A stretch of DNA of 64,000 bases from Methanolobus vulcani (GTDB lineage: Archaea; Halobacteriota; Methanosarcinia; Methanosarcinales; Methanosarcinaceae). The translations under genes were made by a program, and so were the position numbers. This document shows positions 4,552-9,934 of this stretch, piece after piece. The notes under the pieces were generated by a model. The model had not been told where the DNA came from, ran no database searches, and saw nothing but the letters and a program-made list of their open reading frames with translations. Where the stretch lies: positions 310,001 through 374,000 of the forward strand of contig NZ_FNCA01000001.1 of the NCBI RefSeq assembly GCF_900100715.1, given 5' to 3'. Position 1 is the first letter of the stretch, and each line of letters begins with the position of its first letter.

Positions 4552-5505
4552 TTACATTTTTGAAAGTCTGCTCCTTGCTGCTGCCACCATGATCGGAAGT
4601 GTGATGGTTGCATCGGAGTGGACTGTTACTGAGCGTGCTGTTTCGCTGACCTTACCCCATGAACGTGCTTCGTCAAGTGTTGCACCGCTTAAGCCTCCCG
4701 TTTCCGGGGTGTCCATTGTGAGCTGGATAGCATACTCGAATTCCTGATGAGTTACAAGCATGGACTGGAAAATGTAGTTCTTTGGGACACCGCCACCGAT
4801 AAGAACTGCTCCCGGATCTTTTGCTTCATAGCAGATATCGATTATCTCTTTCATGTCTGCAAAAGCATCAACGTTGAGTGGGTGCATCTGTTTGAAAAGC
4901 CATGCCTGAAGTCCGATCATTGAGTCCTGGATTGCAGGACAGTAGACCGGAACATTCATGTCTGCTGCGGCTTTTAAGATGGAGTCCTTATCTTCAATGT
5001 GATTTCCAAGCTGTGTCATGAATTCCCTGATGGATATTGTGTCACTGCCAACATCGGAGAGAATTGCCTTCATCTTTTCCTCAAAGTCTATAAAATAAGG
5101 TTCCGGGAGATAGACATCGTATATCCTGTTTATTTCTTCGTGTTTAAGTTCGATGTCGTCACATTCCGCACAGCCTTTGTAGTGATGCAGCCCCATGGAT
5201 TCCACGATTTCATGAACCATGTTAGCACCGGTTGTGACAAGTACATCGATGTAGCCGTCATAAATGAGATCGGTAACTATCTGCCTCATTCCCGCAGGCA
5301 CCATTGCACCGGCAAGTCCGAAGAAACTGGTTGACCCGTTTGCAAGCATCTCAGTGTAGATGTCAACGGCGTCTGCAAGTTTTCCTGCACCAAAAGCACA
5401 ACCATCGATTGCATGCACCAGTTCGTCAACGCCCATATTTTCTGTAATCTTTGCCTGTTTTATCGGATTTTTCAGTTTATCTTTATGTGAGTGACAATGT
5501 TCCAT
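4552..5505 (-). CDS. dys: Deoxyhypusine synthase
   Basis: Transfers the aminobutyl group of spermidine to a lysine of initiation factor aIF5A, the first step of hypusine formation. 317 residues. The N-terminal [15 protein letters not shown], the [10 protein letters not shown] segment, the C-terminal ggGVPKN nucleotide site and the catalytic lysine in ARSWGKVS are present, so this looks like an active enzyme and not one of the lysine-lacking paralogues. A GAGG ribosome site precedes the ATG. A decayed copy of its first 12 codons and upstream region lies at 11974-12040 in the same orientation. Confidence 0.93.
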
Positions 5506-5660
5506 TTGAAAGCCTCTTTAATATAAGCAGAGTTAACGATGAAGTTGTTCTTTAAGGTTATTATGTGAGGAAGAAAGTTAAGTACAAACCTCAATAAATT
5601 AGAAATATTTTTAATTGATTATGGTCTTTTCTTAGATTATATAGGGGTAGTGTTCAGATT

Positions 5661-7160
5661 ATGGTTAAAACTTGTTTTGTGATAATGCCAATAGGAAATC
5701 AAAAAATCGGAGATGAAATGATTTCTGCTGAAAGTCTTCGAAGTAAATATGATGACCTCATAAAGGAAGCTATTTTAAGAGCGAAACCTGATTTGGACGT
5801 AACACGTGCAGACGATGTTGATATACCAGGAGTTATTACAAATGATATTCTTAAAAGATTAATGACTTCTGATTATGTAGTTGCAGATATTACTTTTCCA
5901 AATCCAAATGTATTTTATGAATTAGGACTTAGGCACGCATGCAAAATAGGAACCATTTTAATCAAAGAAAAAAGTGATGTTCCGCTTCCTTTTGACATTG
6001 CACATTCAAGATATATAGAATATGATAATACAGGTACGGGGTTGAAGAAATTATCTCTAAGGTTAAAAAAACAATTTGAATGGTTTGAAAATAATAAAAA
6101 TATTCCTGATAATCAGTTCATTGAATTGGCAAACCATATCACAAAAAACCTGCTGGACAGTAAAGCGGAGCCTTCTCCAAAAATCACAATGGAAGATACA
6201 AACCATAACAATATTTCTAATTTTAAGGATTTTCATAAAAACGTTTCAAGACAAAAGACATTGTCTTTGCTCAAGAAAGATAAAACAAGTAGCTCATTGG
6301 CTGAAAGGGTGAGATCTGCCAATACTCCAACATCCGGTACTGTTTACGAGGGAGACATAACATATATCGGTACAGACCTTCACGATATAATCGGTTTAGA
6401 TGATGAAATGTATATCGAAATTAATGCAACTAATTTTAAGGGATTCATTTCTCAAGAAAAGCTCAAGATTTATGGTGGGTCTTTTGTTGATGATAGAAAT
6501 ATTAAGAAAGGTGGACTTGTATATGAAACTCGAATAGAGCAGATTGATTTTAAATCCGATGCATGGGAAGACACCTATAACGTTATGGAATTATTTGGGG
6601 ATGTGTATGTTCCACTAAAGAATAGCACACCAAACAAGTTGACCAAGCTTCTCCTTGACACCCGCGACAAGTACACTCTAAGACTTGGTTCTGAATTAAA
6701 GCTCGCTGATGGCTATGAACTCACCGCAAAGCAGATCGATGTAAGTGGTGACAGAGTGTGGATGGAATTATCAAAAGACGGTGAATTCATAGAAGATGAA
6801 GTAATCCATGTTGACAACAAAACAGATAGAACATGGATATATTATACCGATATTGCAGATGAGATTAATGTTGAAGTTTTCAGAGTGAATGTAACTAAGT
6901 TATTTCAAGGTCAGGTAGATAGCCTTGTTGTAGTCGAAGGCATCTGGCTAATTGATTACGAGAATATCCTTGAGCTTGAAGTAGGCGACGAATTTGATAT
7001 TTTGAAAGTTGACCGTATTGTTGATAGTTCAATGATTATGGTGAATGAAGACCCAATATTATTAACAAGAAATTCAATTCAAGAAATAGCAGAGGGTATG
7101 AAATTAAAAGTTACTGACTCAGATGATCTTGCATTCAAACTGATAAGAGAGTACGTCTAA
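5661..7160 (+). CDS. Nucleoside deoxyribosyltransferase/TIR-like domain fused to a Methanosarcina-type S-layer domain
   Basis: A 499-residue fusion. Residues 1-125 look like a nucleoside 2-deoxyribosyltransferase/TIR-like fold: CFVIMPIG first strand, SDYVVADIT, then NPNVFYELGLRHA with the conserved Glu88 of the active site in this family. Such domains bind or hydrolyse nucleotides and often serve in antiviral defence. Residues about 125-215 are a polar linker. Residues about 216-499 look like the S-layer domain of Methanosarcinales: GTVYEGDITYIG, INATNFKGF, GGLVYETRIEQIDF, FGDVYVPL, KYTLRLGSELKL, LFQGQVDSLVVVEGIWLIDY. That domain is normally exported, but here there is no signal peptide and no C-terminal membrane anchor. 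It is one intact frame, AT-rich, and faces the CBASS genes convergently. Function of the fusion is unknown. Confidence 0.85.
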   Translation: MVKTCFVIMPIGNQKIGDEMISAESLRSKYDDLIKEAILRAKPDLDVTRADDVDIPGVITNDILKRLMTSDYVVADITFPNPNVFYELGLRHACKIGTILIKEKSDVPLPFDIAHSRYIEYDNTGTGLKKLSLRLKKQFEWFENNKNIPDNQFIELANHITKNLLDSKAEPSPKITMEDTNHNNISNFKDFHKNVSRQKTLSLLKKDKTSSSLAERVRSANTPTSGTVYEGDITYIGTDLHDIIGLDDEMYIEINATNFKGFISQEKLKIYGGSFVDDRNIKKGGLVYETRIEQIDFKSDAWEDTYNVMELFGDVYVPLKNSTPNKLTKLLLDTRDKYTLRLGSELKLADGYELTAKQIDVSGDRVWMELSKDGEFIEDEVIHVDNKTDRTWIYYTDIADEINVEVFRVNVTKLFQGQVDSLVVVEGIWLIDYENILELEVGDEFDILKVDRIVDSSMIMVNEDPILLTRNSIQEIAEGMKLKVTDSDDLAFKLIREYV

Positions 7161-7287: not shown

Positions 7288-7488
7288 ATGCAAACACCAA
7301 AAAAGCGAAGCTGTGAAATTCCAACAAGAACCATCGAAAGAATTGCCAGAAATGCATCTAAAAATGCAATAATGAATGCATTTAATCACGGATTGCCTGT
7401 TACAAGAATAACCGGAAAAGAGACGATATCGTATATGATGCAGCGTTTGAGAGTGTTTGCCAGACAGAATGGTTCAGTTAAATTATGA
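7288..7488 (+). CDS. Small hypothetical protein, possibly frameshifted
   Basis: 66 residues, basic, with an N-terminal part (TRTIERIARNASKNAI, AFNHGLPVTRITGK) that has the look of a short antitoxin-like or DNA-associated helix followed by a strand. After GKE the composition changes. A different frame there reads KRDDIVYDAAFE, which fits the first part as well, so a one-base shift is possible. No ribosome site is evident. It ends inside the end of the Cap15-like gene on the other strand (six-base overlap). I do not recognise a family, and it may not be expressed. Confidence 0.4.
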   Translation: MQTPKKRSCEIPTRTIERIARNASKNAIMNAFNHGLPVTRITGKETISYMMQRLRVFARQNGSVKL

Positions 7489-8085
7489 TTTGCTTCTTTT
7501 AAGAAAAATATCTCCATGAGTTTGCCTGTCCCTGCAAGTAAAATAACTTCCTTTCAAAGTATTAATTTCTTCAAAATCCAAGAACGTGATGCCATAATGT
7601 TTATGCATAGTTTCTGCTGAATTTGAAGAGGGTTCATTTACATATTGATAAACCAATCGAGATTCTGACAATGATATAGAGGCAACCTCACTCTTTGATT
7701 TTGAAGTATTCGTTTTCAAAATAATAGAGATAGAACTCCATGTTTGTTGGATATCGACTGTAATATCGATTTTATATCTTGAATTATGACTTGTTATTAT
7801 ATGTCCTTTCCATTTTCCATTTAAATCTGGAACTTTTGATAGCCTGAATCCTTTTAATGATATTTTCCAGAGAACTCTGTCTAAAAGATAGAAAAATAGC
7901 ATATATAAGAATCCAAAAGTTGCCAATTGTGGAATATATGGAACATGATTAATGTAAGGAAGAGCATTGATATTATCCACAATTGGATTGAAAATTTTGA
8001 GGATTATTAAGGAAGCTATAAATGCTAAGCTTCCTATGGAACTTAATATTTTAATCCTCTTTTCATCAATAGAATATGAATGCAT
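7483..8085 (-). CDS. Cap15-like CBASS effector (two membrane helices plus beta-barrel)
   Basis: Likely the effector of a type I CBASS system. Cap15 proteins sense a cyclic nucleotide through a C-terminal beta-barrel and disrupt the inner membrane. About 200 residues: two hydrophobic helices (about residues 13-35, with SLAFIASLIILKIF, and about 50-72, with FGFLYMLFFYLL), then a beta-rich half beginning LNGKWKGHI, the typical entry to the barrel. I chose the ATG at 8085 (MHSYSIDEKR), two bases after the CD-NTase stop with GGAAG upstream; an in-frame start at 8106 would overlap that gene by 19 bases. Adjacent to and probably co-transcribed with the synthase. Confidence 0.78.
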   Translation of the reverse strand: MHSYSIDEKRIKILSSIGSLAFIASLIILKIFNPIVDNINALPYINHVPYIPQLATFGFLYMLFFYLLDRVLWKISLKGFRLSKVPDLNGKWKGHIITSHNSRYKIDITVDIQQTWSSISIILKTNTSKSKSEVASISLSESRLVYQYVNEPSSNSAETMHKHYGITFLDFEEINTLKGSYFTCRDRQTHGDIFLKRSKS

Positions 8086-8087
8086 AA

Positions 8088-8969
8088 TTACTTCCAATCG
8101 TTCCAAAATTTAATAGCACTATTTATAAATTTTTGAGCTTTGCCTGTCGACCACTGATCAGATGAATCCCCAAAAAGATCTGTAACTCCATTTTGACATT
8201 TAAAATTACTTATATCACTTTGATTCAGATACGACAGTACATTATAGACTGTATTTCCATAACATGACTCAAATTTGGAATTTGGAATATTGTAAAGTAA
8301 ACATTCAATGAAATATGAAGGTGCTTCACTTTTACCAATTAAATTATTATCAATAAGTTTTGATTTTATATTTTTGAATATCCTGATTGCAGAGTAATAA
8401 TTGCCATTAGTATTATTGCTTTTTAGTGTCCCATTTTTGTCATGTTGTTTCGGATAATTTACTACCCACCCTTCATTTGACTTAAAAGTCATTCCTTCAA
8501 TGTATTTTTCATGTACACTATTAGAGTATTTTTCATAAAGCCGATATTGCATACAAACAACAACATCTGCATCTAAGTATGGAGTTTTCACTTTAATACA
8601 TTTATTTCCCTGATTTACTGTAAAACCATTCTTATTGTTTAAGGCACTAAAAATATCTGATCTAAAATTATCCCAAAGATATGTTGCATTAGAATGATCT
8701 TTGTTATATGCATCTTTTTCAGGTTGTGATAATTTGCTTAAATCCTCTCGGAAAGTTGAATTTAATTGTATAACAACATCAACATCACTATTACTTCTGG
8801 TTGTTGTTGAATTCTTATATGAGCCCTGTAGATAGATTTCATAATTTGGCTTTCCACTTGGCCAACTATATGCAGCTATAGCCTTGCGTATTGATTCATG
8901 TGCATCTTTATATTTAGCTTGTGAACCGGGATTTGCCCAGATATCCAGTTGATTTTCAGGTATTGTCAT
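8088..8969 (-). CDS. CBASS CD-NTase (SMODS nucleotidyltransferase)
   Basis: Synthesises a cyclic oligonucleotide alarm signal on phage or virus infection. 293 residues. The start MTIPENQLDIWANPGS is typical of bacterial CD-NTases. The catalytic signature is complete: Gly49-Ser50 in LQGSYKNSTT, Asp62 and Asp64 in SDVDVVI, and a third Asp at 135 in YLDADVVV. The C-terminal half is the usual helical OAS-like lid. It is followed directly by the Cap15-like effector and there is no Cap2/Cap3 or HORMA/TRIP13 gene, so this is type I CBASS. The product nucleotide cannot be told. Very AT-rich compared with the flanking housekeeping genes, which fits horizontal transfer. A GGTGA site precedes the ATG. 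Confidence 0.9.
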   Translation of the reverse strand: MTIPENQLDIWANPGSQAKYKDAHESIRKAIAAYSWPSGKPNYEIYLQGSYKNSTTTRSNSDVDVVIQLNSTFREDLSKLSQPEKDAYNKDHSNATYLWDNFRSDIFSALNNKNGFTVNQGNKCIKVKTPYLDADVVVCMQYRLYEKYSNSVHEKYIEGMTFKSNEGWVVNYPKQHDKNGTLKSNNTNGNYYSAIRIFKNIKSKLIDNNLIGKSEAPSYFIECLLYNIPNSKFESCYGNTVYNVLSYLNQSDISNFKCQNGVTDLFGDSSDQWSTGKAQKFINSAIKFWNDWK

Positions 8970-9205: not shown

Positions 9206-9934
9206 ATGGATACATCATATTCTGATGCACCGACACGATACAATTACAGGCTTTCTGAGGAAGAGAACCTTTTCCGGTTCTATTTCAGCATTTTTGAACG
9301 CCTTATCAAAAAGATTGATCTCCCGTTTATGTTAAGAGCTGATGGCTTTGCCACCGACAGCCAACCCCAGCTTGTTGCTGTCCGTGAAGCTCTAGTGAAT
9401 CTTCTGATGCACTGCGATTATTTCAGCCCAATGAAGCCAAGGATAAGAGTTTTCCTTGATCGGATAGAGTTCTTAAATCCCGGCAGCCTGCCAAAGGATA
9501 TCGAGTCCATCATAAAAGAAGACTTCACAATGCCAAGAAACCCTATTATCGCTAAAATATTCAGAGTAATCAAACTCTCTGAAAATGCAGGCTCTGGCTT
9601 TGATAAGATGTTCAGTGGCTGGAAGTCGTATTATGAGATTGAACCCGAGGTTTCAAGTGATATAGACCACTATAAGATAACTTTCCCACTGGAAAAAGAC
9701 ACTATTCCTGAAAAAGTGTCGGAGAAAACTAGGGAGAAAACTAGGGAGAAAACTAGGGAGAAAATACTGAATATCATTTCCCAAAACCCTCAGGTAACAA
9801 CTGCTGAACTGGCAAAATTGACAGGAATAACAGACAAAGGTATTGAATGGCATATTAAGAAACTAAAAGATGAAGGATTGCTAAAGAGAGTTGGAGCAGA
9901 CAGGGGCGGTCACTGGGAAGTAGTTGGGAAATAA
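9206..9934 (+). pseudogene. 5'-truncated AlbA_2/ATPase-type transcriptional regulator (RecG-like family), C-terminal part
   Basis: 242 residues matching only the C-terminal half of the large AlbA_2 regulators. Residues about 20-170 are the GHKL-like ATPase region (AVREALVNLLMHCDYF, RIEFLNPGSLP, ENAGSGFDKMF). Residues about 180-240 are a winged helix (VTTAELAKLTGITDKGIEWHIKKLK). The N-terminal DNA-binding domain is absent, and an in-frame stop lies four codons before the first ATG. A run of EKTR units links the two parts. It could still be translated as a fragment, but the missing domain argues for a decaying gene. Confidence 0.7.
9722..9764 (+). repeat. 12-bp tandem repeat (about 3.6 units)
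   Basis: Three exact copies of GAGAAAACTAGG and a partial fourth, encoding Glu-Lys-Thr-Arg units in frame. This is the linker between ATPase and winged helix in the truncated regulator. Such exact short repeats change copy number easily. Confidence 0.9.

Follow-up and report, generated by a model that had tools for sequence, protein, structure and literature searches.

The window analysed here, a stretch of 64,000 nucleotides from Methanolobus vulcani, contains a gene that joins an enzyme-like domain to a domain of the archaeal cell coat, and the question that it raises is what such a coat domain would be doing in a protein without recognisable export signals. The reading that we favour, with a probability of about 0.5, is that the gene encodes a defence protein of modular build that acts inside the cell, the S-layer domain being its constant part, for sensing or activation, and the N-terminal domain a swappable output. 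Comparison with related genomes showed, at the level of sequence, an S-layer domain of cytosolic type with interchangeable N-terminal modules, located in variable or mobile DNA. The reuse inside the cell of a coat domain that is normally outside it, together with swappable defence-type enzymes, suggests a kind of intracellular virus sensor that has gone unrecognised, and among the papers searched we found none that describes PF07752 inside the cell or a protein that joins it to TIR or KAP.

The two domains of the fusion protein

The gene (5661..7160, forward strand; defined by translation and hydropathy) encodes a TIR/NDT-like hydrolase followed by an S-layer domain. The first-pass annotation had described an intact open frame of 499 codons, and translation agrees with this, the frame running unbroken from the ATG at 5661 to the stop at 7160 to give a protein of 499 aa. 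An assembly join or a frame error was also considered and was rejected, since a second Methanolobus genome (G020; the genome of the window is G000), which consists of a single contig, has the same fusion.

The N-terminal domain (residues 1-158; 5661..6134, forward strand) was assigned to the TIR/DRHyd/nucleoside-deoxyribosyltransferase-like type from a family alignment, PDB profile matches, AlphaFold, Foldseek, phrog_3634 and PADLOC. The profile search found no Pfam match of the domain's own, and 11 of its 18 aligned relatives matched PF05014 (Nuc_deoxyrib_tr). When the profile of the family was compared with the PDB, DNPH1/Rcl, NDT and the TIR-STING protein Cap12 were recovered. The family alignment (18 relatives) shows no variation at N83, E87 or F111; the catalytic-type Glu87 (codon at 5919..5921, forward strand), which lies within NPNVFYELG and is conserved in 18/18 relatives, is placed by the profile alignment opposite the glutamate of the DNPH1 YELG motif. 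Since the full-length AlphaFold model, made from a mixed alignment, leaves the N-domain unresolved, this domain was modelled separately, and the resulting model (pLDDT 86), in which the N-terminus of the protein forms strand 1 of the enzyme domain, has a fold of the TIR/NDT class with structural matches to DNPH1, NDT, TIR-STING and the SPARTA TIR (Foldseek values of 8.3e-6 for DNPH1, 4.2e-5 for TIR-STING and 5.5e-5 for NDT). Furthermore, phrog_3634 matches residues 2-211 (5.8e-30), and PADLOC gave a weak match to a TIR effector (6e-8). The earlier proposal of a nucleoside deoxyribosyltransferase/TIR-like domain with a conserved Glu was thus upheld by profile, fold and the invariant Glu87, and with both the fold and the catalytic-type glutamate present the domain falls within the TIR/NDT (DRHyd) superfamily. 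It is, on alignment and model, a member of the TIR/DRHyd class of nucleotide-cleaving domains with a predicted activity. Its substrate is uncertain because the second catalytic residue of DNPH1, an Asp (D80/D69 in human/rat), is not aligned; the corresponding region, VITNDILKRL, is offset by one and is not conserved in the family, a point in which the N-domain differs from DNPH1. The TIR/DRHyd class is among the effectors of conflict systems (PMC7159879). The fold, the motif and the catalytic-type Glu are common to the N-domain, to DRHyd/NDT/DNPH1 proteins and to TIR effectors such as Cap12 TIR-STING and the SPARTA TIR, whereas the partner is an S-layer domain here and STING, APAZ, TPR or STAND modules there.

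A linker of low model confidence (residues 159-228; 6135..6344, forward strand), delimited by the AlphaFold model and by comparison with G020, connects the two domains. It is 23 residues shorter in G020, and the nucleotide alignment has a gap at 6130-6198.

The S-layer domain comprises residues 229-499 (6345..7157, forward strand), as judged from Pfam, PDB 3u2g and the confidence of the model, in which pLDDT is mostly above 85. PF07752 matches residues 257-486 with E=3.3e-56 and 190.7 bits (cut-off 30) over profile positions 15-259 of 259, TIGR01567 matches the C-terminal half (1.5e-52), and 3u2g, the M. acetivorans S-layer protein MA0829, matches residues 274-489 (1.9e-50). The S-layer match claimed at first therefore stands; the tandem-domain architecture claimed with it does not, since there is one PF07752 unit and not a pair. 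PF07752 is the main cell-wall domain of the Methanosarcinaceae, and almost all of the proteins listed with it are targeted for export; the S-layer proteins of the Methanosarcinaceae carry a signal peptide, in most cases together with tandem units and often with an anchor at the C-terminus (PMC3361143). The fusions are of the same family (PF07752/DUF1608) and fold as these S-layer proteins and can be aligned with MA0829 (3u2g) over the whole unit, but they have a single unit without a signal peptide and without an anchor.

The location of the protein is suggested by the same features. Hydropathy analysis revealed neither a signal peptide nor a transmembrane helix (maximal KD19 value of 1.09, and at most 0.63 in the first 60 residues), whereas the N-termini of the secreted S-layer relatives in the comparison set reach 2.35-2.54; there is also no hydrophobic tail that could serve as a C-terminal anchor. 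The lack of a signal peptide and an anchor had been stated in the first-pass annotation, and it extends to all five fusions found in this study, in which no signal peptide, transmembrane helix or anchor was detected and the highest 19-residue hydropathy is 1.1-1.5. In addition, Lys+Arg make up 9-11% of the fused S-layer domains and 4-6% of secreted Methanolobus domains, about a twofold difference for most of the latter, but this counts as supporting evidence only, because the S-layer domains of some other genera overlap the range of the fused ones. A cytosolic location is thus a prediction, made from the absence of export signals.

Recurrence, head exchange and genomic setting

Fusions of this kind are rare. 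Five proteins were found in 4 of 112 genomes of the family, and the four carrier genomes are complete or near-complete. The search for the fusion in other Methanosarcinaceae, which the first-pass annotation had proposed, recovered a TIR-like head in G020 in addition to that of the window, a KAP P-loop NTPase head in G007 and in a second gene of G020, and KAP with pentapeptide repeats before the S-layer domain in G008. The three KAP-S-layer proteins match PF07693 with E values of 3.7e-38, 2.4e-39 and 7.6e-39, and all three have an intact Walker A motif, GKWG(T/S)GKT, and Walker B motif, VIFIDDLDR. In the tree the fused S-layer domains form a monophyletic group (100/99) nested among secreted ones, adjoining adhesin-like S-layer proteins of another genus, which are secreted and have hydrophobic, signal-type N-termini. 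The S-layer part had dN/dS values of approximately 0.2-0.3 and the heads had values of 0.05-0.2; the purifying selection on the S-layer part indicates that these are working genes. KAP-based antigen sensors have been mentioned before (PMC10907252), and known KAP P-loop NTPases with variable C-terminal modules, such as pentapeptide or FGE-like ones, have the same Walker motifs as the KAP-S-layer proteins, which differ from them in that the C-terminal module is an S-layer domain. We also observed KAP NTPases with pentapeptide repeats in place of an S-layer domain at three loci (L106:6453-9142, L109:1771-4959 and L110:217-3267), one of which is split by an insertion sequence and one of which apparently continues, across a stop, into an FGE-like domain.

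The conserved left flank of the variable locus is the gene for deoxyhypusine synthase (4552..5505, reverse strand; Pfam and locus comparison), and a fusion lies at the same syntenic place beside it in G000, G020 and G007, with a TIR-like head in the first two and a KAP head in the third. Nucleotide alignment with G020 revealed a recombined tract (5501..6127, forward strand), approximately 98.6% identical between flanks of 85-90%, that begins with the upstream intergenic region and runs through the whole N-domain. The identity of the two genomes is 84.7% in the S-layer part and 90% in deoxyhypusine synthase. The two genomes differ at 3/50 fourfold sites in the N-domain, at 21/86 in the linker and S-layer domain, and at 42/135 in the gene that flanks the fusion; P was 2e-4 for the N-domain against the flanking gene, 0.009 for the N-domain against the S-layer domain, and 0.36 for the S-layer domain against the flanking gene. 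Because the S-layer part has diverged like the flanking gene and the N-domain has not, the head was exchanged and the S-layer part stayed with the locus. The recombination that exchanged the head ended at the domain boundary.

The variable interval, bounded by deoxyhypusine synthase and a conserved gene for a 137-aa membrane protein, could be compared in 15 genomes that showed both flanks; it was empty in 4 of them and held varied cargo in the rest. In the window, direct reading identified a 67-codon remnant of a zeta-type toxin-antitoxin (7288..7488, forward strand), in which the head of the antitoxin is joined to a scrap of the toxin start; an apparently intact pair of antitoxin and P-loop toxin lies in the same interval of G008 (L137:3522-4465). 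Convergent to the fusion gene is a CBASS pair, composed of a Cap15-type effector, a cyclic nucleotide receptor with 2TM (7483..8106, reverse strand; PF18153 2.5e-32, PADLOC 1.9e-67), and a CD-NTase or CBASS-type oligonucleotide cyclase (8088..8969, reverse strand; PADLOC 2.2e-112, and NF053871 6e-88, which is below the cut-off of that model). The 3' remnant of an AlbA_2/Schlafen-HATPase gene (9206..9934, forward strand), recognised from an intact 490-aa copy in G020 (L044:5439-6911), lacks its 5' half at the point of CBASS insertion. The possibility that the fusion is itself a component of CBASS was rejected: although the N-domain has its weak PADLOC match to a TIR effector and the pair is a neighbour here, the genes are separate and convergent, and in the loci read no CBASS pair lies beside the other four fusions, that is, the TIR fusion of G020 and the KAP fusions.

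The neighbours of the other fusions, whose count had also been proposed, are of a similar nature. The KAP fusion of G020 comes after a casposon-type cas1 gene and a viral-type polB gene. An inverted copy of the polB end (151 bp, 87%) flanks it, and a type I restriction gene is close by; a search for a target-site duplication around this casposon-like block found none, and no clean empty site for its left flank was found in the genus. The fusion of G008 has a Zot-type ATPase and further element-like genes in its vicinity. Casposon-type Cas1 genes or fragments are very numerous in Methanolobus and its relatives, and many Methanosarcinaceae genomes have about ten matches each.

Relatives of the N-domain were found by tblastn in Staphylococcus and Streptococcus phages and in one further phage, and all of the phage matches listed were to the N-domain. 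Two scans of a viral contig collection likewise gave no S-layer relatives at the sensitivity used. The neighbourhood and the phage relatives, as far as gene content can tell, speak for a part played in conflicts with viruses or elements, without proving it. In Staphylococcus phage vB_SauS_Mh1, a 219-aa protein of the N-domain family is encoded by a lone, reverse-oriented gene in the replication module (L148:3992-4651); a lone gene against the direction of its neighbours is as expected of an accessory gene, and this one is possibly an uncharacterised prophage defence gene. On plasmids, relatives of the N-domain were found as well and, in Methanohalobium, a single S-layer protein. A close relative of the N-domain (69%) in G120 (L060:1501-2264) is frameshifted and has a different C-terminal part.

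Proposed role and rival explanations

The speculative reading given at first was that of a defence protein which had borrowed the S-layer fold as an intracellular sensor or decoy. Two parts of this interpretation, the defence setting and the reuse of the S-layer domain inside the cell, are supported by the two types of effector, the head swap, the lack of export signals, and the CBASS, casposon and mobile neighbours, while the sensed target is something that we infer, candidates being a viral envelope, a precursor of the host S-layer or a viral receptor-binding protein. That PF07752 occurs repeatedly in proteins lacking export signals, where it stays constant behind heads swapped between TIR/NDT-like and KAP, points to a new sensor module of archaeal immunity. 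Under the mechanism that we propose, the S-layer domain would recognise a cytosolic protein linked to infection, most likely a viral S-layer-binding protein such as a receptor-binding or fibre protein, and binding would cluster or release the N-domain, whose Glu87 site would then cleave NAD+ or a (deoxy)nucleotide and stop the infected cell. In the KAP versions, a trigger of the same class would lead to another output.

For haloarchaea it has been reported that escape mutants of the virus HFTV1 map to an S-layer gene (PMC9973310) and that fusion of HRPV-6 is triggered by S-layer extract (PMC8875312). Since S-layer proteins are receptors of haloarchaeal viruses, an S-layer domain in the cytosol could trap the receptor-binding proteins of a virus when they have just been made. 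Certain plant NLRs have integrated decoys, in which a target or receptor domain is held within the immune protein as bait. By analogy, the fusions might be prokaryotic integrated-decoy immune receptors with a cytosolic S-layer bait for new viral receptor-binding proteins, wired to exchangeable killing or signalling modules, a suggestion that we make tentatively; the proposed bait logic is like that of the plant proteins, but the system is archaeal, there is no NLR, and the bait function is one that we infer. Any mimicry would not be close, because the S-layer domain shares only about 50% identity with the S-layer proteins that its own genome encodes. No hypervariable patch was seen in the fused S-layer domains, in which the variable sites are spread along the domain (four sequences only). 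If the bait reading is true, the virus-receptor interaction at the surface and immune recognition inside the cell would rest on one domain, and therefore a virus could not easily escape one and keep the other. The recurrence of the fusions also makes this decoy idea testable in Methanosarcina, which is genetically tractable.

Alternatively, the S-layer domain could be a scaffold for oligomerisation that only clusters the effector, in which case sensing would be performed by the linker, by KAP or through a small molecule, and the protein would still serve in defence. It is general knowledge of the family that S-layer domains self-assemble. TIR-type effectors become active when clustered, an example being the TIR-STING fibre 7un8, which was a top fold match, and a common scaffold would fit an S-layer domain that is conserved while effectors are swapped. 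However, the fusions have one unit, whereas the major S-layer proteins of the Methanosarcinaceae are tandem (PMC3361143), and no further sensor domain was recognised in the 499-aa protein by the profile searches, so that we consider a mere scaffold rather unlikely. It is less probable still that the protein monitors unexported S-layer precursors or the state of the envelope and adjusts nucleotide metabolism, with no antiviral function. An S-layer domain in the cytosol could bind S-layer protein as it is synthesised, and nucleotide-salvage enzymes are found among the relatives of DNPH1 and NDT, but the patchy distribution, the exchangeable heads, the defence and mobile neighbours and the variable locus are unlike a housekeeping gene.

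The association with mobile DNA could also mean that the fusions serve the elements which carry them and not the host, for instance in superinfection exclusion. The KAP-S-layer gene of G020 adjoins the casposon-type cas1 and is bracketed by the inverted repeat of the polB end, the G008 fusion is near the Zot-type element, and relatives of the N-domain occur in prophages. Nevertheless, three of the five fusions are at the chromosomal locus with an S-layer part that diverged in step with the flanking gene, and the casposon-like block showed no target-site duplication, leaving only a small chance for service to the elements. Finally, because recombination at a domain boundary was demonstrated, the protein might be a non-functional chimera produced by evolutionary accident. 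This is very improbable and is nearly excluded by recurrence and selection, as the fusion arose with two unrelated heads, the frames are open in 5/5 genes, and dN/dS is low in both the S-layer part and the heads.

S-layer domains in other proteins without signal peptides

Further cytosolic S-layer fusions were sought by screening PF07752 matches in 21 genomes, with the N-termini checked for selected ORFs. This screen returned mostly exported proteins and one protein of a contractile injection system, and a scan of named genomes added ordinary S-layer proteins and one doubtful short ORF only. A 213-aa S-layer-domain ORF in Methanosarcina sp. KYL-1 (L116:91-732) has no obvious signal peptide, and its start and status are uncertain. 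A second use of PF07752 in a protein free of a signal peptide (E 1e-33) was seen in the Methanosarcina-type genome G127 (L150:3698-7663, forward strand). This 1322-aa protein is DUF6519-like, has fibre-type repeats, and lies in an extracellular contractile injection system cluster that contains sheath, gp19 tube, PAAR, gp25, baseplate J and eCIS core genes. Its S-layer domain may aim the injection device at the S-layers of other cells.
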